Source: Pomphorhynchus laevis (Eukaryota > Acanthocephala > Palaeacanthocephala > Echinorhynchida > Pomphorhynchidae). Taken from it: 64,000 nucleotides of DNA. Below, piece by piece: positions 1,461 through 38,699 of the stretch (within the stretch, counting starts at the first letter, position 1; each line of letters opens with the position of its first letter). Under the pieces are notes generated by a model. That model saw nothing but the letters and a program-made list of their open reading frames with translations. It searched no databases and was not told where the DNA came from. The stretch spans positions 170,955 to 234,954 of the forward strand of contig WNNJ02002222.1 of NCBI GenBank assembly GCA_012934845.2, in the 5' to 3' direction. The position numbers and the translations under genes are program-made.

Positions 1461-1600
1461 CATCTAGCATGGGACTTTCGGGTGTGATCCTCGTAGGACC
1501 GTTCATTTAGATATTGTAATATAGATATATTGTAATATAAATATATTTTAGATATTAAAATAAGATACTTTTACAACCTCTATATATATGCCTATATATC
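1461..1600 (-). repeat. Repeat family F, inverted copy
   Basis: The segment is the reverse complement of two copies at 2485-2605 and 2670-2790. The shared part includes a G+C-richer block read on the minus strand as GGTCCTACGAGGATCACACC, followed by AT-rich sequence with ATATTACAATATC motifs. Part of that block resembles the GGTCCTGCGAGGATCCC block of family H at 2384-2400, so F may be a terminal piece of an H-like element. Function unknown. Confidence 0.75.
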
Positions 1601-1659
1601 TTTCCTATATAGATGCCTATATATGTTGTATATGCCTATATATATCACTATGCTTTCCT

Positions 1660-2015
1660 CATGAAGAGGCATAAACACCAGTTTATGCTCTCTCCGATGA
1701 TTCAGATTAAGGGTAGTTCTGTTTTTCGAGCTTTAAATACTGTTTAAGCGTGTGTTAAGGTGCCTATAGATGATTATTAAAGTCACGGTACTGATGAGCT
1801 CCGTTAGATCGAAGCGCGTATACCGTTGTGAAGTTTGTCGTCATACATAGGATGACTGGGCATACGTAGCGACTTTGAATAATGCAAGAATAATTCGGTT
1901 CTATTTCTTAGTCTGATGAGGATATATAGAATGCTGCCTGGTGTTTATGCCTCTTCATGAGGAAAACATAGTGATATATTTATGAGTACACCAGTGAGTG
2001 TCCCAGGGCAGGTGT
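1660..2015 (+). repeat. Repeat family E, copy 1 (retrozyme-like)
   Basis: This block matches minus-strand copies at 29345-29810 and 29811-30160. Landmarks are the CCTCATGAAGAGGCATAAACAC ends, the AGGGTAGTTCTGTTTTTCGAG segment split into shorter shared words, and a candidate hammerhead core at 1783-1828. The copy ends in GGGCAGGTGTAACAAC next to an (AT)n run. No protein is encoded. Its size and ribozyme-like core resemble animal retrozymes; that assignment is an inference. Confidence 0.65.
1783..1828 (+). ncRNA. Candidate small type I hammerhead, family E copy 1
   Basis: CTGATGAG lies at 1791-1798. The stem I strands TCACGGTA (1783-1790) and TACCGT (1821-1826) are complementary over six pairs. 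GAA at 1811-1813 is followed by the palindrome GCGCGT and then A1820 as the residue before the predicted cut. Stem II is poorly formed in this copy, so it is probably inactive. The two minus-strand E copies have a better stem II. Hammerheads with palindromic stem III are known from Penelope-like elements; activity here is not shown. Confidence 0.5.

Positions 2016-2021
<6 letters not shown>

Positions 2022-2069
<48 letters not shown>
2022..2069. repeat. (AT)n microsatellite
   Basis: A run of about 24 AT dinucleotides joining the end of the family E copy to a family H copy. It marks the junction between two unrelated repeat units. Confidence 0.97.
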
Positions 2070-2071
<2 letters not shown>

Positions 2072-2430
2072 CTTTGTAATCTATTATATTGGTCATTTAG
2101 TGATCCCGCTGATGTCTATTACACTGAAAAGAATTCACTGCATTGACTTCGAAATAGCAAGCTACGTCATGCAATTAGCATATAGTGAATTCTTTCTGCT
2201 TTAATCTATATATCGTATGTTTTTCATGTGCATACACTGTATTGATGCAACTGATGAGGCTTCTCAAAGCCGAAACGGTACGCCGTCTTGCAGTGTAGAA
2301 GCATGAAATTCTCTATATATAGAGAAAAGCAGATAGGTGTAATAGACAGTCCTGGTTGAATCAAACCTTTTATTTATATATTGGTCCTGCGAGGATCCCA
2401 GGCGGCGGTGCTGTTTCCTTTGTAATATAT
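2070..2430 (+). repeat. Repeat family H, copy 1 (retrozyme-like)
   Basis: One family H unit: GATCCCGCTGATGTCTATTA near the start, an AGTGAATTCTTTCTGCTTTA block, a hammerhead core (2244-2297), then a segment around 2384-2404 that reads GGTCCTGCGAGGATCCCAGG. The same order of blocks recurs at 26010-27176, 27777-28460 and 34126-34385. No coding potential. Confidence 0.8.
2244..2297 (+). ncRNA. Type I hammerhead ribozyme, family H
   Basis: All core elements of a hammerhead are present in order: stem I strand TGCAA (2246-2250), CTGATGAG (2251-2258), stem II GGCTT/AAGCC closed by a CTCA loop, CGAAAC, stem III ACGG/CCGT closed by a 4-nt loop, then GTC ending at 2287. TTGCA (2288-2292) completes stem I. 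The predicted cut lies between 2287 and 2288. Every catalytic-core base I know to be required is intact, so this copy could be active. Stem I is short, so loop contacts or dimerisation may be needed. Confidence 0.88.
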
Positions 2431-2484
2431 ATAATAGGTTGTAGTAAGTTATATATATTTAATAGGTTTAATAAGTTGTATATA

Positions 2485-2790
2485 TATATTGTAAAAGTAT
2501 CTTATTATAATATCTAAAATATATTTATATTACAATCTATCTATATTACAATATCTAAATGAACGGTCCTACGAGGATCACACCCGAAAGTCCCATGCTA
2601 GATAACATATATATAGGCATATACAACATATATAGGCATATATATAGAAAAAATATATAGGCATATATATAGTAAAAGTATCTAATTATAATATCTAAAA
2701 TATATTTATATTACAATATAGCTATATTACAATATCTAAATGAACGGTCCTACGAGGATCACACCCGAAAGTCTCATGCTAGATAACATA
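2485..2790 (+). repeat. Repeat family F, two direct copies
   Basis: Two near-identical copies, 2485-2605 and 2670-2790, are separated by AT-rich TATATAGGCATATA sequence. Both are inverted relative to the copy at 1461-1600, so families E and H1 sit between inverted F arms. The segment ends at the first family A unit. Confidence 0.75.
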
Positions 2791-2931
2791 TATATAGGCA
2801 TATACAACCTCTGCCTAGTGTTTAAAGATGGTGCGCACAGCAATTCGATCTGGTTAAGAGCGTAAGCCTCAGACAATTTAGCAAAGTGTCGGAAACGCCT
2901 TTATTAACAATGTCACACAGTCAACCGAAAC

Positions 2932-3008
2932 GAGCAGTGTGTACCTCATTCTACTGATGAGTGTTGCCGGGTACTCATCATTTCGATGCTGAAGTGGTCG
3001 TCTAGAAG
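2932..3008 (+). ncRNA. Reversed-order hammerhead module, family A unit 1
   Basis: It contains the GAAA strand, CTGATGAG (2953-2960) and a GTC ending at 3002. The stem II upstream strand reads TCAAC in place of GGCAAC, which weakens stem II. Stem I (TTCTA with TAGAA) is intact. See 3681-3768 for the fully annotated copy. Confidence 0.6.
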
Positions 3009-3302
3009 TGACATGGTGACTGAAAGTCGTGAATCGAAGTCCAGTCTATCAAGCAACACCATTTATTATAAATGCCGTATTTCGTAAGAAATCCTGGACC
3101 GTTGTTTACTCAGCACATCCGTGCACTACTATTATACCTGCCGCATCCATTTAGGATCCAACGAGTGCAGCGACAATTCAGCAACAACCTCTGCCTAGTG
3201 TTTAAGGATGGTCCGCACAGCAATTCGATCTGGTTAAGAGCGTAAGCCTCAGACAATTTAGCAAAGTATCGGAAACGCCTTTATTCACAATGTCACACAG
3301 GT

Positions 3303-3390
3303 CAACCGAAACGACCAGTGTGTACCTCATTCTACTGATGAGTGTTGCCGGGTACTCATCATTTCGATGCTGAAGTGGTCGTCTAGAAGT
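3303..3390 (+). ncRNA. Reversed-order hammerhead module, family A unit 2
   Basis: The stem III strands ACGACCA (3311-3317) and TGGTCGT (3376-3382) are fully complementary. CTGATGAG is at 3335-3342, the GTC ends at 3383, and TAGAA follows for stem I. Stem II is TCAAC with GTTGCC, one or two pairs weaker than in unit 3. The distance between equivalent GTC sites in units 1 and 2 is 381 bp. Confidence 0.62.
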
Positions 3391-3680
3391 GACATGGTGA
3401 CTGAAAGTCGTGAATCGAAGTCCAGTCTATCAAGCAACACCATTTAGTATAAATGCCGTATTTCGTAAGAAATCCTGGACCGTTGTTTACTCAGCACATC
3501 CGTGCACTACTATTATACCTGCCGCATCCATTTAGGATCCAACGAGTGCAGCGACAATTCAGCAACAACCTCTGCCTAGTGTTTAAGGATGGTCCGCACA
3601 GCAATTCGATCTGGTTAAGAGCGTAAGCCTCAGACAATTTAGCAAAGTGTCGGAAACGCCTTTATTCACAATGTCACACA

Positions 3681-3768
3681 GGCAACCGAAACGACCAGTG
3701 TGTACCTCATTCTACTGATGAGTGTTGCCGGGTACTCATCATTTCGATGCTGAAGTGGTCGTCTAGAA
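3681..3768 (+). ncRNA. Reversed-order hammerhead module, family A unit 3 (reference copy)
   Basis: In order: stem II strand GGCAACC (3681-3687); GAA at 3688-3690; stem III strand ACGACCA (3691-3697) with extra GTACC (3702-3706); stem I strand TTCTA (3710-3714); CTGATGA (3715-3721); stem II partner GTTGCC (3724-3729); GGTAC (3731-3735); a small hairpin insertion; stem III partner TGGTCGT (3756-3762); C3763 as the residue before the cut; and stem I partner TAGAA (3764-3768). All hammerhead core strands are present, but in the order GAAA, CUGAUGA, UC, the reverse of the normal cyclic order. A monomer would be a crowded pseudoknot, so action in a dimer is inferred. Confidence 0.68.
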
Positions 3769-3851
3769 GTGACATGGTGACTGAAAGTCGTGAATCGAAG
3801 TCCAGTCTATCAAGCAACACCATTTAGTATATATATATTCACAATATCACA

Positions 3852-3945
3852 CAGTCAACTGAAACGACCAGTGTGTACCTCATTCTACGGATGAGTGTTG
3901 CCGGGTACTCATCATTTCGATGCTGAAGTGGTCGTCTAGAAGTGA
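3852..3945 (+). ncRNA. Reversed-order hammerhead module, decayed family A copy
   Basis: The module is complete but has CGGATGAG in place of CTGATGAG, a core change expected to inactivate it. The downstream sequence is truncated and rejoined at about 3945, so this is the rearranged unit of the array. Confidence 0.5.
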
Positions 3946-4149
3946 TGCCGTATTAAATTGCCGTATTTCGTAAAAAATCCTGGACCGTTGTTTACTCAGC
4001 ACATCCGTGCACTACTATTATACCTGCCGCATCCATTTAGGATCCAACGAGTGCAGCGACAATTCAGCAACAACCTCTGCCTAGTGTTTAAGGATGGTCC
4101 GCACAGCAGTTCGATCTGGTTAAGAGTGTAAGCCTCAGACAATTTATAT

Positions 4150-6031
4150 ATCTCTATCACTTCCAACCAATTCGCATCTCATTTGCAACGCAAAATAAAT
4201 CGAGCTTTGACCTCAATCCACGTAATATTATCTTCTAGTTTCTCCTACCTTGCCCCATATCATACTGAACTGTTTCACTTTTCACTTTTATCTATCGAAA
4301 GCGTATCTGATGCCCTAGCACGATTACCCAATTCAACCTCTCCTCTCGATCCTGTTCCAACATACATTCTAAAGTTACTAAGTGACACCATCAGCCCATC
4401 TCACTACCATTCGTCGACACCATCAGACACCATCTCACAAGTGTCTTCAACATGTCTATCCATTTATCACACTACCCTTCGTCGTTCAAACATGCCATAG
4501 TTCGCCCATTATTAAAGAAGCATCACCTTGATCCAAGTTCCGCCTCCTCCTATAGACCAATATCAAACCTTCCGACCATCTCAAAACTTTTCGAGCGTCT
4601 CATCCTCAGACAGGTAAGCAACTACATATCATCAAATTCTATGTTTCCACCTTTTCAATCAACATATCGACCACAACATTCTACTATGACCGCATGCACA
4701 AAACTCTCCAATGATCTACTTCTTGCTCTTGACAAACATCTAGTAAGCCTTGTAATTTCACTTGATTTATCCTCCGCCTTTGATGTAGTTGATCACACTA
4801 TACTTCTCTCATGTCTCAAACAACGTTACTGCTTCTCGTCTCATGTCATTTCTTGGTTCAAATCCTACCTCTCAAATCGCTCTTATCACGTAGTCTCCAA
4901 CTCCAACTCTTCTGCGCCGGTTCCTCTCAGCTGCGGTGTACCACAAGGATCCGTTCTAGGGCCGCTTCTTTTCACCCTTCTTCTTGGTGATTTATCTTCC
5001 ATCGTGGTCCCTTTCGGCTTTGAAGTTATTCAGTACGCTGACGATATAGTAATCTATGCATCATGCACACTTACATCTGCATCCAACCTCGCTTCTGATG
5101 CATCGTCTTGCCTCTCTGTTATTCACGCATATCTTTGTTCAATCCGTATGTTTTTAAACAACGAGAAATCTAACATGATGTAGATAACACCGCGCCACTC
5201 TTACACCCTCGATTTTCCAGTATGCATACACAATTTCCGTCTACCAGAAGTGACTATCATGACAATCCTCGGTGTCCCTTTTGACAATAATCTCTCGTTT
5301 CTGTCTTTTATTCGTAGCAAGATCAGTTCATGCTCCCTCATCCTCCATGACATTCGAAGTGTCCGTAGAAACCTCGACGTCAAATCGACAGCTATTTTAA
5401 TCTCCAGCCTTTTCATGCCTCGTCTAGAATATTGCTTAGGTCTTCTCGTAAACTGTCCAGCATATCAATTTCACTATCTTCAAAGGATTCTGCACATGGC
5501 TGCTAGGGTCATCTTCCGCCTTTGCAAGTACGACCACATCTCCAACACCCTCCGCATCCTTAACTGGCTCGACATTCCGAGCCGCATAACCTCTCAAATT
5601 CTCACACTTGCATGGCAAATCAAATTCCGGCACAACCCTCCTTATCTATATCTTCCTGATAGCGCATCCAATATGACGACTGGTCTCTCCCTAAGAAGTC
5701 ATCGTTTCTACTCGTTTTTCGTCCCCCGTCACAACAGTAATCACGGATATCGTGCGTTCACCATCGCTGCACCACGCCTTTGGAACAAACTTCCTCGAGA
5801 CACAAAATCATTGACGTCGCTTAAACACTTCAAAACTTCCTTGATCGCCATACTTCTTGCAAACGAACTAAAATAACACTTTCGGCCGAAATCAATTCAA
5901 TAACTCTACTTACAAGTTCAAACATTCATCGGACGTAAACTCGTCTTTTAATTTTTATAGTGGGCATGTAAATGGTTCTATTTTACCATAACGGCCACTC
6001 TAAATAAATACTATTTTCTATTCTATTCTAT
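4150..6031 (+). mobile_element. LINE A copy 1 (CR1/L2-like), 5'-truncated
   Basis: This is a non-LTR retrotransposon fragment covering the reverse transcriptase and C-terminal region. One reading frame runs from 4452 to 5876, broken by a single TAG at 5181-5183 where another copy has TGG. RT motifs visible are SLDLSSAFDVVDH, GVPQGSVLGPLLF and QYADDIVIYA (catalytic YADD). The C-terminal part has LQRI and WNKLP motifs typical of CR1/Jockey-group LINEs. It lacks the endonuclease. The 3' end is an AAATAAATAC stretch with (TTCTA)n repeats, typical of a CR1/L2 tail. It interrupts the family A array. Confidence 0.9.
4452..5876 (+). pseudogene. LINE A reverse transcriptase, one in-frame stop
   Basis: The RT domain occupies roughly the first 240 codons and ends at a TAG (5181). 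The same frame continues for about 230 codons with the C-terminal domain. The catalytic YADD motif is intact. Because only one substitution breaks the frame, this copy is comparatively young among the LINE A copies here. Without an endonuclease domain it could not act on its own. Confidence 0.85.
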
Positions 6032-6037
6032 ATATAA

Positions 6038-6305
6038 CAACCTCTGCCTAGTGTTTAAGGATGGTCCGCACAGCAATTCGATCTGGTTAAGAGCGTAAGC
6101 CTCAGACAATTAAGCAAAGTGTCGGAAACGCCTTTATTCACAATGTCACACAGGCAACCGAAACGACCAGTGTGTACCTCATTCTACTGATGAGTGTTGC
6201 CGGGTACTCATCATTTCGATGCTGAAGTGGTCGTCTAGAAGTGACATGGTGACTGAAAGTCGTGAATCGAATTCCAGTCTATCAAGCAACACCATTTAGT
6301 ATATA
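6038..6305 (+). repeat. Family A unit after the LINE insertion
   Basis: A partial family A unit beginning CAACCTCTGCCTAGTG and ending at CACCATTTAGTATATA. It contains the reversed-order module at 6153-6240 with all strands intact (GGCAAC, CGAAAC, CTGATGAG, GTTGCC, TGGTCGTC, TAGAA). It meets an inverted copy at 6306. Confidence 0.88.
6153..6240 (+). ncRNA. Reversed-order hammerhead module, family A
   Basis: Same arrangement as at 3681-3768, with identical stem II (GGCAAC/GTTGCC), stem III (ACGACCA/TGGTCGT) and stem I (TTCTA/TAGAA) strands and an intact core. Confidence 0.65.
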
Positions 6306-6465
6306 TATACTAAATGGTGTTGCTTTATAGACTTGACTTCGATTTACGACTTTAAGTCACCATGTTACTTCTAGACGACCAAGGAGTACTGGCAACACTC
6401 ATTAGTAGAATGAAGTACTCACTGGCCGTTTCGGTTGCCTGTGTGACATTGTGAATAAAATGGGT
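6306..6465 (-). repeat. Inverted, divergent family A fragment
   Basis: Reverse complement of the family A module region, beginning TATATACTAAATGGTGTTGC and running to GTGTGACATTGTGAATAAA. On the minus strand the core reads CTAATGAG in place of CTGATGAG. The stem III arms lack the small hairpin insertion, as in the 35-36 kb copies. With the preceding unit it makes a head-to-head palindrome. Confidence 0.8.
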
Positions 6466-6469
6466 ACTC

Positions 6470-7690
6470 ATTTACTGATGAAGCTTTGTTGTTGAAGCAA
6501 AGCGCGTTTATAAAAAAACATCAAGTGCACTTATTTATTTCTGTCTTTTTTTGGCGGTTTTACTCAATTACAAAACCTTCTAGTTATTCTTTATATGCAC
6601 AAATGCGTATCTGTTGGTTACGAGAATAAATTGATCATGGATAAATTTATCATGAAGGATAAATTTTCTTAAGAAGATTTATCTTTCATGTCACAAGAAA
6701 AAGAGTCAAGCCAGTGTGTCCTGATCTAGAAAAGAAAAGAAAACTTTTTGCATTAAATTTTTGGAAACCTGTTTTATAGCCCCAAACACCTTTTATTAGT
6801 ATCTGGGTATACATCTTGCATCAAAATTGTCATTTAGTGAACATACTTAACTCAATTGATTACAAATAGCTATGGATTCGTCTCCAGTTCACCGGCGTTG
6901 TTATCTATCTTTTGAAAAAGCAATGATGTATCTTAACTTAAGATTGTTACCGATTATATTCTATGCAATAGAATACTAATTGCGAAAATTATTGTCGGAT
7001 AATCATGTAAAATATTGTCAACTATAGTTTTAACAATTTCGTGAATTTCCTCTTTCACTGAAACTATGTGAAATTCACTGAATGTATCACACAAAAAAAC
7101 GTTTTCTAGGCTGCATCACATTTTTGAAAGTACAGCATTAGAATTATCGAACGAATTCTATCTCACATCTGTGTATATTCAATTAGGTTAAATAGATGCA
7201 TATAATTTAAAGCGTTATTCTAATTTAAATTCTTAAATTTAAAAATATCTAAATTTTTAAAGTATCTAAAAAATAAAAATTTTGTATATTTTTGGAAATC
7301 TGATCCATATCCCAAAACACGTTTTTACCTATTTTTAATTATTAACTATAAGTATTTTAGTTTCACGGGTCCTTTGTCTAATCGCTCAGTATTTCACAAA
7401 TCTAGAAAGATATCCTATCACTTCGTGAATTATCGCCCAAATGGATAAAAGGTCAAGTAAGACAAGCCTAATCCTAACATAACTTAAATCTAGCATCGTT
7501 AAACGCATATTTATACAATTAGCATTTGAGATTAATGTACATACGAGATCCACGTCGCATAACTGCGTCGAGGTCGTTTATTTATTTTTTAGTGATCGGG
7601 AAACTCGCTTGTACGCAGAATTCTAAATGTTGTATTACAACAGTCACGAATAAAGTTTTGAAGGCAGGAGCTGAAATGAAATAAAATATA
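6470..7690. other. Unassigned A+T-rich sequence
   Basis: No conserved coding, RNA or repeat signal seen. Short homopolymer and TTTAAATT-type tracts only. Confidence 0.5.
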
Positions 7691-22990: not shown

Positions 22991-23289
22991 TTTGAATAAT
23001 CCTTCGGCTGCTTGTTATATATTTAAAGGACATCACTGAGAATGTGATGGTAGCATGGACCTAACCTCTTTAAACTAGCAACGTGATTTTCTAAGCATCC
23101 TAACTTTATCGGCAGGAATTTTAATTGATGTCGTTGCTTGCTTTCTCACAAAATTCCTTTATTAAATACATTCTTATAATTTTTATAAGATTGTGTAACA
23201 CTGTGCTCCGGGAGTTAGAAAGCTTCAGTTTCATAATCGTAGATGTTGCCAAAAACCGGAGTTCGATTAATTGTGGAGCAGACTTCCTT

Positions 23290-23364
23290 ATCACTCCTAG
23301 ACGATCTGATGGTATCCGGCAGCACTCATCAGTATGGTGAACTATCATCAGTCGTTTCGACTGC
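23290..23364 (-). ncRNA. Reversed-order hammerhead module, family B copy 1
   Basis: Minus strand: GCAGTCGAAACGACTGATGA, a stem I strand TTCACCATA, CTGATGAG, TGCTGCC, then ATACCATCAG, ATCGTC and TAGGAGTGA. Stem II is slightly mismatched because GGCAGC has become TGCAGT. The core is intact. Confidence 0.58.
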
Positions 23365-23650
23365 ATTGTGATATATTTAAAAGGCATCTCCGAGAATTTG
23401 CTAACGTAGTAGCATGAGCATAGCCTCTTTAAACTAACAACGTGCTTTCCGGATCATACAAATTTTATTCGGCAGGAATTTTAATTGCTGTCGCTGCTTG
23501 AGTTCTCACAGGATCCATTTATAGGATACGTTTTTATAATTTAATCGCAGAATGTGTTAAACTGTGCTCCAGGAGCTAATAAGCTTCAGTTTCATAATTG
23601 TAGATGTTACCAAAAACCAGAGTTCGATTACATGCAGAGCAGACTTCCTT

Positions 23651-23725
23651 ATCACTCCTAGAAGATCTGATGGTAGCCGGCAACACTCATCAGTAGGGTG
23701 AACTACCATCAGTCGTTTCGGCTGC
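23651..23725 (-). ncRNA. Reversed-order hammerhead module, family B copy 2
   Basis: Minus strand GGCAGC, CGAAAC, GACTGATGGTAG, TTCACCCTA, CTGATGAG, TGTTGCC, CTACCATCAG, ATCTTC, TAGGAGTGA. The stem III arms pair over about 14 bases and stem I over eight. The residue trio before the predicted cut reads TTC where the other copies have GTC; the effect is uncertain. Confidence 0.6.
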
Positions 23726-23904
23726 CTTGTGATATATTTAAAAGGCATCTCCGAGAATTTGCTAACGTAGTAGCACGGACCCAGCCTCTTTAAACTAACA
23801 GCGTGCTTTCCTTATGATCCTAATTTTATTCGGCAAAAATTTTATTTGCTGTCATTTCTTGCTTTCTGATAGAATCTCTTTAGAGGATACATTTTTATAA
23901 TTTT

Positions 23905-26384: not shown

Positions 26385-26436
26385 CACTGCAAGACGGCAT
26401 ACCGTTTCGGCTTTGAGAAGCCTCATCAGTTGCAGC
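26385..26436 (-). ncRNA. Type I hammerhead ribozyme, family H
   Basis: Intact core on the minus strand: CTGCAA, CTGATGAG, GCTTCTCAAAGC, CGAAACGG, TATG, CCGTC, TTGCAG. Six stem I pairs. The predicted cut is between 26393 and 26392 on the minus strand. Confidence 0.9.
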
Positions 26437-29029: not shown

Positions 29030-29310
29030 ACGCTCTTTACAGCAATTCAATTTGGTAAAGATCGTTAGCCTCAGACAATAAACCAGTGTCGGAAACAACT
29101 TCATTCACAATGTCACACAACCAAAACGGCCAGTGGGTACTTCATTCTACCGATAAATGTTGCGGGTACTCCATTATTTCGATGCTGAAGTGGTCGTCTA
29201 AAAGTCACATTGTGACAGAAAGTCGTGAATTAAAGTCAAGTCTAAAAAGCAAAACCATATTGTATAAATGTTGTATTTCGTAAGAAATCCTGGACCGTTG
29301 TCTACTATAT
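29030..29310 (+). repeat. Diverged family A unit
   Basis: Recognisable family A from AGCAATTCAATTTGGTAAAG to GTAAGAAATCCTGGACCG. In the module, CGAAAC reads CAAAAC and CTGATGAG reads CCGATAAA, so it should be inactive. Confidence 0.75.
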
Positions 29311-34125: not shown

Positions 34126-34387
34126 AAAGGTTACACTGAAAAGAATTAACTGCATTGCACTGACTTCGAAAGCGCAAGCTATGTCATGCAATTAGCATAT
34201 AGTGAATTCTTTCTGATTTAATTTATATATAGTATGATTTTCATGTGTATACATTGTATTGATGCGACTCAGTCAGGCTTCTCAAAACCGAAAACGGTAC
34301 GCTGTCTGGCAGTGTAGAAGCTTGAAATTTTTTATATATAGAGAGAGAAGTAGATAGATGTAATAGACAGTTCTGGTTGAATCAAAC
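34126..34387 (+). repeat. Family H unit, decayed ribozyme
   Basis: Starts at TTACACTGAAAAGAATTAAC and runs through the GAATTCTTTCTG block. The hammerhead region (34261-34315) has CTCAGTCAGG for CTGATGAGG and GCTGTCTGG for GCCGTCTTG, so it is inactive. Confidence 0.8.
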
Positions 34388-34425
34388 CTCTAGATGTCGG
34401 AAATGCATTTTCACAATGTCACAGA

Positions 34426-34496
34426 GGCAGCCAAAACGGCGTGTGATAGTTTATCTTACTGACGATGGCTGCTGGCTATCACATGATTGTCTAAGA
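34426..34496 (+). ncRNA. Reversed-order hammerhead module, family D copy 1
   Basis: Stem II strand GGCAGCC (34426-34432); AAAA (variant of GAAA); stem III strand from 34435 reading ACGGCGTGTGATAG; stem I strand TCTTA (34454-34458); CTGACGA (34459-34465, fits CUGANGA); stem II partner GGCTGC (34467-34472); stem III partner CTATCACATGATTGT (34476-34490); C34491; stem I partner TAAGA (34492-34496). Stem I has co-varied relative to families A and B. Confidence 0.62.
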
Positions 34497-34778
34497 GTGA
34501 CGAAAGTTTGCAGACTAAAGAATATGCTCGATTCAAACACCCACACAAACAAATGGGAAGATTGCTAATCCCAATCTCGAGCAATACCGATTCAAACGAA
34601 AATGTTATTAAATAGAAAGAATCGATCCACTAAATCTCGGTTTCTTACAGTCAAGCATCCGAAAGTTTGATCCTCTGGTTGTTAATGATAGTCTGGATTG
34701 CAAATTGTAGGATTTAAGAGCTAACGCCACCTACAATTAGAGCTAGATGTCGGAAATGCATTTTCACAATGTCACGGA

Positions 34779-34852
34779 GGCAGCCTAAACGACGGGTGAT
34801 AGTCCATTTTACTGACGATGGCTGCCGGATATCACATGACCGTTTTGGAGTC
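34779..34852 (+). ncRNA. Reversed-order hammerhead module, family D copy 2
   Basis: GGCAGCC, TAAAC (core variant), ACGGGTGATAG, TTTTA, CTGACGA (34812-34818), GGCTGCC, ATATCACATGACCGT, then TTTGG. Stems II and III are retained. The GAAA and UC positions are changed, so it is probably inactive. Confidence 0.55.
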
Positions 34853-35323
34853 ACGAAAGTTTGTAGGCTAAATAATATGCTCGATTCTGACAACTACACA
34901 ACCATATGGAAAGAATCGCTTATCGCAATCTCGAGCAATACCGATTCAAACAAAACCTTAAGATTATATATACCTGTGAGTAATTCATTATACTGATGAG
35001 TGCTGCCGGTTACTCATTGGTCGTCAAGAAGTATAATGGTGACTGAAAGTCGTGAATCGAAGTCCAGTCTATCAAGCAACACCATTTAGAATAAATGCCG
35101 TATTTCGTAAGAAATCCTGGACCGTTGTCTACTCAGCACATCCGTGCATTACTATTATACATGCCGTATCCATTAAGGATCCAACGAGTGCAGCGACAAT
35201 TCAGCAACAATCTCTGCCTAGTGTTTAAGGATAATCCGCACAGCAATTCGATCTGGTAAAGAGTGAAAGCCTCAGACAATTAAGCAAAGTGTCGGAAACG
35301 CCTTTATTCACAATGTCACAAAA

Positions 35324-35395
35324 GCAACCAAAACGACCAGTGAGTACAGCATTCTACTGATGAGTGTTGCCGGGTACTCATTGGTCGTCTATAAG
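35324..35395 (+). ncRNA. Reversed-order hammerhead module, family A short form
   Basis: GCAACC with GTTGCC (35366-35371) as stem II; AAAA variant core; ACGACCAG followed by TGAGTAC (35333-35347) pairs with GTACTCATTGGTCGT (35374-35388) as a continuous stem III of about 15 bp; stem I ATTCTA (35351-35356) with TATAAG (35390-35395), one mismatch; CTGATGA 35357-35363; C35389. The stem III and stem I strands are separated by only three bases, so a monomer could not fold as a classical hammerhead. Confidence 0.62.
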
Positions 35396-35676
35396 TGACA
35401 TGGTGACTGAAAGTCGTGAATCGAAGTCCAGTCTATCAAGCAACACCATTTAGTATAAATGCCGTATTTCGTAAGAAATCCTGGATTGTTATATACTCAG
35501 CACATCCGTGCACTACTATTATACATGCCGTATCCATTAAGGATCCAACGAGTGCAGCGAATATTTAGCAACAATCTCTGCCTACTGTTTAAGGATAAAT
35601 TCGATCTGGTAAAGAGCGTAAGCCTCAGACAATTATGCAAATTGTCGAAAACGCCTTTATTCACAATGTCACACAG

Positions 35677-35748
35677 GCAACCGAGACAACCAGTGAGTAC
35701 TTCATTCTACTGATGAGTGTTGCCGGGTACTCATTGGTCGTCTATAAG
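35677..35748 (+). ncRNA. Reversed-order hammerhead module, family A short form, second copy
   Basis: As the preceding copy, but CGAGACAACC for CGAAACGACC. The equivalent C is at 35742, giving a 353-bp cut-to-cut unit. The core GAAA is altered. Confidence 0.55.
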
Positions 35749-36029
35749 TGACATGGTGACTGAAAGTCGTGAATCGAAGTCCAGTATATCAAGCAACCCC
35801 ATTTAGTATAAATGCCGTATTTCGTAAGAAATCCTGGACCGTTATATACTCAGCACATCCGTGCACTACTATTATACATGCCGTATCCATTAAGGATCCA
35901 ACGAGTGCAGCGAATATTCAGCAACAATCTCTGCCTACTGTTTAAGGATAAATTCGATCTGTTAAAGAGCGTAAGCCTCAGACAATTATGCAAATTGTCG
36001 AAAACGCCTTTATTCACAATGTCACACAG

Positions 36030-36101
36030 GCAACCGAGACAACCAGTGAGTACTTCATTCTAATGATGAGTGTTGCCGGGTACTTATTGATCGTCTAGAA
36101 G
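36030..36101 (+). ncRNA. Reversed-order hammerhead module, family A short form, third copy
   Basis: GGCAACCGAGACAACCAG, then TAATGATGAG for TACTGATGAG, and TCGTC ending at 36095 followed by TAGAAG. Two core changes, so inactive. Confidence 0.52.
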
Positions 36102-36239
36102 TGACATGGTGACTATAAGTCATGAATCGAAGTCCAGTCTATTAAGCAACACCATTAAGTATAAATGCCGTATTTCATAAGAAATCCTGGATAGTTGTAT
36201 ACTCAGCACATCCGTGCACTAGTATTATATATATGTATA

Positions 36240-36600
36240 TATTTTTTGTGGAGGTGTTTGAATCGAGCATATTCTTTAGCCTGCAAACTTTCGGCAATCC
36301 TAGACGGTCATGTGATAGCCGGCATCTATCGTCAGTAAGATGAACTATCACACGCCGTTTCGGCTGCCTCTGTGTCATTGTGATAATGCATTTCCGACAT
36401 CTAGCTCTAATTGTAGGTGGCGTTAGCTCTTAAATCCTACAATTTGCAATCCAGACCATCATTAACAACCAGAGGATCAAACTTTCGGATGCTTGACTGT
36501 AAAAACTGACGATGGCTGCCGTCTATCACATGGTCGTATTGGAGTGACGAGAGTTTGCAGGCTGAAGAATATGCTCGATTCAAAAATTTACCCATATATA
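36240..36600. repeat. Family D fragments, inverted pair
   Basis: A minus-strand family D unit (36240-36485) carries a nearly intact module. A plus-strand fragment follows (about 36500-36590: ACTGACGATGGCTGCCGTCT onward). They share the GAATATGCTCGATTC word in opposite orientations. Confidence 0.8.
36296..36367 (-). ncRNA. Reversed-order hammerhead module, family D, best core
   Basis: Minus strand: GGCAGCCGAAACGG with intact GAAA; the stem III strand continues CGTGTGATAG; TCTTA; CTGACGA; TAGATGCC (stem II partner weakened); CTATCACATGACCGTC; TAGGA. Stem III pairs over about 13 bases with a small bulge. Confidence 0.6.
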
Positions 36601-37009: not shown

Positions 37010-37325
37010 GCCGATTGAAACATACTTCGATCAACGAACTGCATGTTTCATGTCACTTCTAGACGACCACTTCCCCATCGAAATAATGGAGTACTCGGCA
37101 ACTCTCATCAGTAAAATGAAGTACCCACTGGTCGTTTCGGTTGCCCTTCTGGCTGGAGAGCAAAATCCTCAAAGTTTAATCAACGTGTCGGAAATGGCTT
37201 CTTTTACTTTCACACAGGCAACCGGAACGACCAGTGGGTATTTCATTCTATTGATGATTGTTTCCTAGTACTCCATCATTTTGGTTCTGAAATGGTCGTC
37301 TAGAAGTGACATGGAGCATGAAGTT
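37010..37325. repeat. Family A fragments, inverted pair
   Basis: Minus-strand module region (37050-37145: GGCAACCGAAACGACCAGTG on the minus strand) followed by a plus-strand copy (37180-37320: GGCAACCGGAACGACCAGTG). In the minus copy CTGATGAG is intact; in the plus copy it reads TTGATGAT and GAAA reads GGAA. The ends lie in unrelated sequence. Confidence 0.8.
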
Positions 37326-37444: not shown

Positions 37445-37985
37445 ATTATATATAATTTAATCGCAGAATGTGTAAAACTGTGCTCCGGGAGCTAAACAGC
37501 TTCAGTTTCATAATCGCAGATGTTGCTAAAAATTGGAGTTCGATTACATGCAGAGCAGACTTCCTTATCACTCCTAGCCGATCTCATCGTAGCCAGCAGC
37601 ACTCATCAGTAGGGTGAACTACCATCAGTCGTTTCGGCTGCATTGTGATATATTTAAAAGGCATTTCAGAGAATTTGCTAACTTAGTAGCATGATCATTG
37701 CCTATCTAAACTGACAACGTTTAAAGAGGCTATCAACGTTTATATATATTATATATATAATTTTAAATCAGATTGTGTTAAACTGTGCTCCGAGAGCCAA
37801 TAAGCTTTAGTTTAATAATTGTAAATGTTTCCAACAGCCAGAGTTCGATTACAAGTAGATCAGCCTCTGTATCACTCCTAGACGAGCTGATGGTAGCAGG
37901 CAGCACTCATAAGTAGGGTTAATGTCCATCAATCGTTTTGGCTGCCTTGAGATATATTTAAAAGGCATCTCTAAGAGAAATAAAT
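37445..37985 (-). repeat. Family B units, minus strand
   Basis: Two units, with reversed-order modules at about 37570-37641 and 37871-37946. Both have decayed core or stem positions (for example CTTATGAG in the second). A TATATATTATATATATAA junction separates them. Confidence 0.82.
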
Positions 37986-38173
37986 TATATTAAATTAAAT
38001 TATAAAAACGTATCCGATAAATGGATCCTGTGAGAACGCAAGCAGCGACGGCAATTAAAATTCCTGCCGAATAAAATTTGAATGATCCGGAAAGCACGTT
38101 GTTAGTTTAAAGAGGCTATGTTCATGCTACTACGTTAGCAAATTCTCGGAGATGCCTTTTAAATATATCACAA

Positions 38174-38249
38174 TGCAGTCGAAACGACTGATGATAGTTC
38201 ACCCTACTGATGAGCGCTGCCGGATACCATCAGATCGTCTAGGGGTGAT
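38174..38249 (+). ncRNA. Reversed-order hammerhead module, family B, plus strand
   Basis: GCAGTC with GCGCTGC region as stem II (imperfect); GAAAC with A15.1 at 38184; stem III strand ACGACTGATGATAG (38184-38197) with ATACCATCAGATCGT (38224-38238); stem I TTCACCCTA (38198-38206) with TAGGGGTGA (38240-38248), eight pairs and one bulged G; CTGATGAG 38207-38214; C38239. Stem I directly abuts stem III with no linker. Confidence 0.64.
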
Positions 38250-38534
38250 AAGGAAGTCTGCTCTGCATGTAATCGAACTCTAATTTTTGGCAACATCTAC
38301 AATTATGAAACTGAAGCTTATTAGCTCCTGGAGCACAGTTTAACACATTCTGCGATTAAATTATAAAAACGTATCCTATAAATGGATCCTGTGAGAACGC
38401 AAGCAGCGACGGCAATTAAAATTCCTGCCGAATAAAATTAGGATAATCAGGAAAGCACGTTGTTAGTTTAAAGAGGCTATGCCCATGCTACTACGTCAGC
38501 TAATTCTCGGAAATGCCTTTTAAATATATCACAA

Positions 38535-38592
38535 GGCAGCCGAAACGACTGATGGTAGTTCACCCTACTGATGAGTGCTGCCGACTACCATA
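38535..38592 (+). ncRNA. Truncated reversed-order module, family B
   Basis: GGCAGCCGAAACGACTGATG, TTCACCCTA, CTGATGAG and TGCTGCC are all consensus, but the stem III partner and the cut site are missing after CTACCATA. Confidence 0.6.
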
Positions 38593-38699
38593 TAAAAAAG
38601 GCATATCCGAGGATTTGCTTACGTGGTAGCATGGGCCTAGTCTCTTTAAACTAACCATGTGCTTTCATGTGCTATATATAGCACATTTATATTAAAACT

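Follow-up and report, generated by a model that had tools for sequence, protein, structure and literature searches.

A GCS-ordered hammerhead motif in tandem repeats of the acanthocephalan Pomphorhynchus laevis, with covarying stems and possible docking between units

Positions 3681–3768 of the window (the whole stretch of 64,000 nucleotides of Pomphorhynchus laevis DNA analysed here) raise the question of how a hammerhead could work with its three conserved strands in reversed order. Read directly, the locus carries a GAAA block, then a CUGANGA block, then a cleavage-site block (G-C-S), and we regard the reversal as near certain to be real. This order is the cyclic opposite of that of types I, II and III, and no rotation of it gives the C-G-S cycle. 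The window copy does not hold CUGANGA, GAAA and site in the cyclic order of those types inside one unit; it holds GAAA, CUGANGA and site in one continuous stretch, as in type GCS. A preliminary description of this DNA had reported the reversed order with its crossing helices, and the pairing of all three stems (GGCAAC/GTTGCC, ACGACCA/TGGTCGT and TTCTA/TAGAA), and we find both as described, stems I, II and III being fully paired over 5, 6 and 7 bp. Stem II has an additional core-proximal G-C pair and a bulged U3723; this bulge and two further helices, P4 and P0, are present in the window copy and had been missed. The same description stated that no known hammerhead type has this topology, which is mistaken, for Eckert et al. 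2023 (PMC10085705) had already named it type GCS. From the sequence, the predicted cut site lies 3′ of C3763 (GUC). Representatives of all seven families distinguished below keep the hammerhead core, that is, CUGANGA, GAAA and a U-H site flanked by stems I–III, although many individual copies are broken. Coordinates are collected in Table 1.

Table 1. GCS copies in the window and elements of the copy at 3681–3768
Feature	Position	Strand	Remarks
Tandem array of 381-bp family-A unit	2804..3831	+	holds 3681-3768
Family-A GCS copies in that array	2915-3014, 3296-3395, 3676-3775	+	all three intact
P0 5′ strand	3671..3677	+	ATGTCAC; pairs 3769-3775
G block	3681..3697	+	stem II strand GGCAAC 3681-3686, C3687, GAAA 3688-3691, stem III strand ACGACCA 3691-3697
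P4 5′ strand	3699..3706	+	pairs 3731-3738, one mismatch U3701/U3736 in window copy
C block	3710..3729	+	stem I TTCTA 3710-3714, CTGATGA 3715-3721, G3722, bulged U3723, stem II GTTGCC 3724-3729
P4 3′ strand	3731..3738	+	pairs 3699-3706
P4-stem III spacer	3739..3755	+	17 nt in family A; 0-1 nt at equivalent place in A′
S block	3756..3768	+	stem III TGGTCGT 3756-3762, C3763, stem I TAGAA 3764-3768
P0 3′ strand	3769..3775	+	GTGACAT; pairs 3671-3677
Degenerate family-A GCS copy	3849..3948	+	core broken; R1 + intactness script
Intact family-A GCS copy	6148..6247	+	R1 + intactness script
Inverted GCS copy	6362..6444	-	core broken; R1 + intactness script
Family-C GCS copy	23288..23370	-	stem I weak; R1 + intactness script
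Family-C GCS copy	23649..23731	-	cleavage-site G altered; R1 + intactness script
Degenerate GCS copy	29111..29210	+	R1 + intactness script
Two family-F GCS copies	34421-34503, 34774-34856 (span 34421..34856)	+	GAAA altered in both
Array of four A′-like GCS copies	34957..36107	+	copies at 34957, 35318, 35671, 36024; 0/4 intact by script
Family-F GCS copy	36291..36373	-	core present, stem II damaged
Weak partial GCS match	36475..36550	+	R1, E = 0.063
Intact A-like GCS copy	37050..37150	-	R1 + intactness script
Degenerate A-like GCS copy	37212..37312	+	R1 + intactness script
Two degenerate family-C GCS copies	37565-37647, 37869-37951 (span 37565..37951)	-	
Two family-C GCS copies	38169-38251, 38530-38606 (span 38169..38606)	+	first intact, second truncated

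Eckert et al. defined six hammerhead block orders, GCS among them, and showed that SGC and CSG sequences cleave. For GCS they reported a single sequence, GCS-1 of Caballeronia peredens (kobs 0.014 per min, significance unclear), and advised scepticism about this order because it showed no covariation. GCS-1 shares the 5′–3′ order GAAA, CUGANGA, site with the P. laevis repeats, but it is one bacterial sequence without covariation, whereas P. laevis has thousands of copies in seven families, with covariation, in tandem repeats of an animal. The P. laevis motif has the peripheral helices P4 and P0; the comparison with GCS-1 covers block order, copy number, covariation and host. The SGC and CSG types are likewise non-circular, and an extra helix joins their stems I and II, as P4 would here; in a few SGC RNAs, as described, that helix and the distal stem III are joined without a linker. 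Their block orders nevertheless differ from GCS, and their sources are metatranscriptomes (SGC) and metagenomes (CSG). Among open-licence PMC papers, preprints aside, a search by title and start of abstract found no other paper on GCS, acanthocephalan or later natural non-circular hammerheads. Within the open-licence papers searched, no GCS group before the P. laevis repeats shows covariation, and none comes from an animal.

How common is the reversed order, and do existing models recognise it? Searches of the genome and of the Rfam hammerhead families had both been proposed in the preliminary description. Across the 249-Mb P. laevis assembly, exact matches number 2436 for a strict A/C pattern (CGAAACGA..CTACTGATGAG..TCGTCTAG) and 2935 for a looser A/C pattern, copies of the window copy's kind being among the latter. 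An E/F pattern has 1999 exact matches and a G pattern 714 (22 rows with letters shown, all G-like); the backward control of each of the four gave 0. The looser A/C, E/F and G patterns together make about 5,600 matches, with family H and decayed copies left out and an overlap that is unchecked and should be small because core or site letters differ. A descriptor scan of 51 sequences (the window and 50 loci, partly overlapping, 344,333 bases) found 111 GCS, 9 CGS and 5 SCG matches, corresponding to 34, 6 and 3 distinct cores. A census by distinct context in 53 sequences gave 75 GCS, 8 CGS and 3 SCG, a ratio that is biased because the loci were mostly picked by GCS patterns. As for Rfam, no hammerhead model matches the GCS copies of positions 1500–6600. 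At gathering score there are 0 matches in the window, and at E up to 10 the 17 rows for 1500–6600 are all below gathering scores; the sole hammerhead row among them is a canonical copy at 2246–2292 (23.8 bits versus a cut-off of 52). One of these rows, a snoRNA family at 3268–3364 on the minus strand (E 4.6, below gathering), overlaps a GCS copy on the opposite strand.

We tell apart seven GCS families, under names of our own (A, A′, C, E, F, G and H), with tandem spacings of 348–397 bp. Copies are 351 and 376–381 bp apart in A, 348–364 bp in A′, 356–361 bp in C, 393 bp in E (in locus L054), 357 bp in F, 397 bp in G and 370 bp in H, a family represented by a single four-unit array (L044). When individual units are compared by BLAST, A aligns with C (71% over 181 nt), A′ with C (72% over 152 nt) and A′ with E (65% over 127 nt) around the ribozyme, and G aligns with H (70% over 126 nt); between the A/A′/C/E group and the G/H group, the only matches are of 20–26 nt, at array ends. 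Where A′, C, E and F are aligned, the positions identical in all four fall mainly on P0, CGAAAC, CTGANGA, CGTCT and one upstream box; this alignment is no measure of flank conservation, because the C and A′ flanks run off the array ends. A box TCGGAAAYGC, about 35 nt upstream of the ribozyme, is common to A′, C and F. Family H has GUA in place of GUC as its site, and GUA is an allowed hammerhead cleavage site.

Two features are distributed together. Families A, A′, C, E and F have a linker of TTCA type ahead of stem I as well as an unpaired U next to CUGANGA in stem II; G and H have neither. This co-occurrence suggests a contact between the two; in addition, the CA of TTCA is able to pair with the UG beside CUGANGA, giving an alternative apical hairpin. 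A TTCA-type GCS pattern had 0 matches in viral contigs, and its two bacterial matches in genome contigs (L051, L052) are taken as chance because they are without the stems. Upstream of their ribozyme, family G units carry a B box like that of tRNAs (GAGTTCGAATC; L046, 5187–5198 and 5584–5594), as tRNA-derived SINEs do; a pol III promoter is only suspected, because ARAGORN finds zero tRNAs in the window and in five loci.

The stems of the hammerhead co-vary across copies; the preliminary description had named the opposite outcome as one that would refute it. Alignment A3, built with MAFFT from 25 distinct copies (families A′, C, E and F), has 94.8% of the cells of 27 pairs paired, and 12 pairs change on both sides; MAFFT gaps misplace part of P4/stem III in C and E, so that only nine III/P4 pairs are counted. 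Double-change cells number 59, versus 16.1 ± 3.0 in shuffled alignments (0/500 as high) and 1 to 11 in slid controls. Stems I and II alone, which cross the rod described below, are paired in 92.6% of cells, with 29 double-change cells against 7.6 ± 2.0 shuffled (0/500) and 0 to 10 in slid versions. A set of 17 sequences with better E and F array members likewise gives 29 double-change cells, over 7 pairs, versus 9.7 ± 2.2 shuffled (0/500). In that set, three pairs of stem II vary between G-C and A-U (one of these three in just one copy) and one varies between C-G and U-A; in stem I, two pairs vary between C-G and U-A (one of the two in just one copy) and one between U-A and G-C. Further pair types of stems I and II are not above shuffles (432/500 as high in A3; 286/500 with 17 sequences). 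P0 has one pair with a double change, A-U to G-C, across families. One caveat is that independent events are few, because the changes are mostly between families and the rows within a family are related.

Swapping strands between families leads to the same view. Six families (A′, C, E, F, G and H) were compared in this way, and 163/164 of the listed pairs form inside a family; with strands exchanged, pairing falls to 79/140 in stem I and 95/162 in stem II, and P4 goes from 49/49 within families to 90/224. Stem III (94/110) and P0 (56/60) add little to this test because swapping barely lowers their pairing. The strands were picked by eye, with a leaning toward pairing, and the family F copy used (34421) has an altered GAAA and a stem III paired by wobbles. 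G and H were aligned apart because MAFFT misplaced G against the other families. Order, copy number, families and covariation are directly supported by the data, and from the pattern of sequence change it is highly probable that a GCS-ordered hammerhead is maintained by selection on its fold.

The two peripheral helices give this fold its outline. P4 closes the C block in each unit and differs by family: A′ has TGAGTAC/GTACTCA, C has CTGATGGTAG/CTACCATCAG, E has CCTAACCAC/GTGGTTAGG, F has TGTGATAG/CTATCACA, G has GTCTGGGT/ACCCAGAC and H has GCGTAGG/CCTACGC. The P0 helix, on either side of the G and S blocks, reads TGTCAC/GTGACA in family A′, TATCAC/GTGATA in both C and E, and GTCAC/GTGAC in F; no clear P0 is seen in the family G sequences. 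Nested predicted folds of A′, C, E (L054) and F are a rod of P0, internal loop, stem III, P4 and apical loop. The outer helix of the L044 E copy differs, and stem III is missing from the minimum-energy folds of G and H. Against shuffles, the nested folds score z = −4.15 for A′, −2.77 for C, −2.16 for E and −1.89 for F; the window copy (z −0.52) does not do better than its shuffles, 52/200 of which are as stable. The hinge between stem III and P4, read from the sequences, measures 1×17 nt in A, 10×10 in G and 9×9 in H. It is 2×1 to 3×2 in E, a single nt in both C and F, and none to one nt in A′.

We propose that each retrozyme-like tandem repeat unit encodes a self-cleaving GCS hammerhead, and that cutting 3′ of GUC (C3763 in the window copy) would free unit-length RNA from multimeric transcripts. 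The unit would fold as the rod, with the GAAA and cleavage-site strands in its internal loop and the CUGANGA strand in its apical loop, and stems I and II would arise once an apical loop docks on an internal loop. The favoured docking would join adjacent units in the same transcript, or two separate molecules. The blocks would then follow a canonical order, either that of type I, with C(n)-G(n+1)-S(n+1), or that of type II, with G(n)-S(n)-C(n+1). We favour docking between units because stem III and P4 are nearly continuous in A′, C, E and F; a continuous helix of 14–15 bp with usual A-form dimensions would be unable to return its own apical linkers of 4 nt and 2 nt to its base. Docking onto the next unit would have no such limit and would suit all families, and the arrangement of the units in tandem arrays is consistent with an available neighbour. 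Sequence does not assign stems I and II to one unit or to two, because neighbouring units are alike. That selection on the fold is combined with inter-unit docking as the main active form is, in our estimate, an even call. Hammerheads that work better as dimers have precedents: newt and viroid hammerheads are active as dimers (PMC6155905), and small Penelope-associated hammerheads cleave as dimers (Lunse 2017). In those dimers, as described, two hammerheads share an elongated helix III, whereas in our model the CUGANGA strand itself is exchanged. A more specific form of the model, which we put forward tentatively and at somewhat less than an even chance, is a strand-exchange hammerhead whose CUGANGA strand is hidden in the apical loop of its own rod and acts only on a neighbour, such that multimers would be chopped and monomer circles would stay whole.

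It is also possible that a single unit forms a pseudoknot, with P4 bent back alongside stems I and II, and that the monomer self-cleaves. Short GCS-1 and SGC-type transcripts cleave in vitro (PMC10085705), and the stem III/P4 hinges of A, G and H are flexible. The C copy at L003:1832–1938 (row C4), moreover, differs from its neighbour by a double change in stem II (G-C to A-U), and a change private to one unit slightly favours docking within the unit. Set against these points, A′, C, E and F are nearly hinge-free, yet their P4 is kept by covariation, and the geometry would oppose keeping both P4 and stem III intact when a unit of these four families folds in cis. We consider cleavage in cis a genuine possibility, if one that probably does not describe the main form.

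Another reading is that the motifs are relics, or a structural hairpin of the repeat, with a fold conserved for some other reason and no present catalysis. Copies were listed with a model, R1, which was built from nine sequences and had no other use. In the window it returned 28 rows, of which five 37-nt rows on type I copies (26381, 28067, 26041, 28407, 2263) were dropped and 23 kept. In 6 of these 23 copies the core is intact and each of the three stems reaches at least 3 bp; an earlier script, which ignored stem II and took the first CTGANGA only, likewise gave six, though a different six. The 17 failing copies speak for relics, as does the want of an Rfam ribozyme family match for GCS copies even at E up to 10. 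Non-intact copies in the window look like fossils, as expected of a transposed repeat. The representatives of all seven families, however, keep CUGANGA, GAAA and the U-H site together with newly paired stems I and II, which the rod alone does not need, and arrays of identical or near-identical units suggest recent amplification, so that a motif lacking present catalysis appears improbable. Finally, a chance arrangement of short words in a repeat, which the shortness of a single copy and one match to one of six decoy cores in the 53-sequence census (the other five gave 0) might recall, is hardly credible given 0 matches in three first-order Markov simulations of the size of the 51-sequence scan, backward controls of 0 and seven families with different stem sequences.

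The repeats resemble retrozymes in several respects. Animal retrozymes, as described by Cervera and de la Pena 2020 (PMC7229834), are tandem units of a few hundred bp (about 350–390 bp in mussel) in thousands of copies, and the P. laevis repeats are likewise; those retrozymes carry a type I hammerhead, whereas the P. laevis repeats are GCS. Further marks of animal retrozymes are target-site duplications and abundant unit-length RNA, both circular and linear. Spacings of 348–397 bp, with a hammerhead in the unit, fall within the short tandem repeats (150–450 bp) that mark retrozymes, and the type I hammerhead that also marks them is not what the GCS-ordered units contain. In nine distinct contexts, family A arrays close on a common 3′ sequence, AACACCATTTAG, which runs on into TATA (TGTATA once) and TA repeats, and a fixed 3′ end of arrays fits retrozymes. 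A type I B repeat in L011 (near 142, minus strand) ends in AAGCAACAYCATTTAGTATA, nearly identical to the A-array end, and GCS A arrays end with AAGCAACAYCATTTAGTATA-like sequence and then TA-rich sequence in L005, L006, L012, L019, L025, L034 and the window (near 3831 and 6300, both strands). These near-identical ends suggest that A arrays and the type I B repeat may share mobilising machinery.

Other elements lie nearby. The window has canonical type I hammerheads (CTGATGAGGCTTCTCAAAGCCGAAACGGTA..GCCGTC) in repeats of about 340 bp at 2251, 27106, 28055 and 28395 on the plus strand and at 26429 and 26089 on the minus strand. Minimal type I hammerhead-like sequences with a very short stem III occur at 1791 (+) and 29528 (−), and we take them to resemble the hammerheads of Penelope-type elements. 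Between two GCS arrays are a LINE-type reverse-transcriptase fragment (RVT_1, 4452–5183) with TA-rich flanks and a segment without a Pfam match (5250–5876). A type I B-like sequence at about 34281–34420 directly adjoins the family-F GCS units, possibly as a chimeric element. One protein encoded in the window matches GJ496_009307 of P. laevis with 100% identity over 62% of its length. Repeats make up about 66% of P. laevis DNA, with Penelope-like elements contributing about 15% of transposable-element content (PMC7943196). By term search, the words 'ribozyme', 'satellite' and 'Penelope' do not occur in the genome paper's main text (PMC7310846).

Eckert et al. (PMC10085705) left GCS open, and a diverse, covarying set from an animal would go far to show natural use of this order. 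The P. laevis set would also mean that a populous group of ribozymes escapes the Rfam models, and GCS repeats would widen the retrozyme class beyond type I. The set would likewise offer a test of whether multimer-only cleavage separates concatemer processing from circle stability. If strand exchange is true, what looks like a non-circular permutation would be canonical hammerheads linked in a chain and trading one strand, and the selfish RNA of these repeats would have a built-in length sensor.
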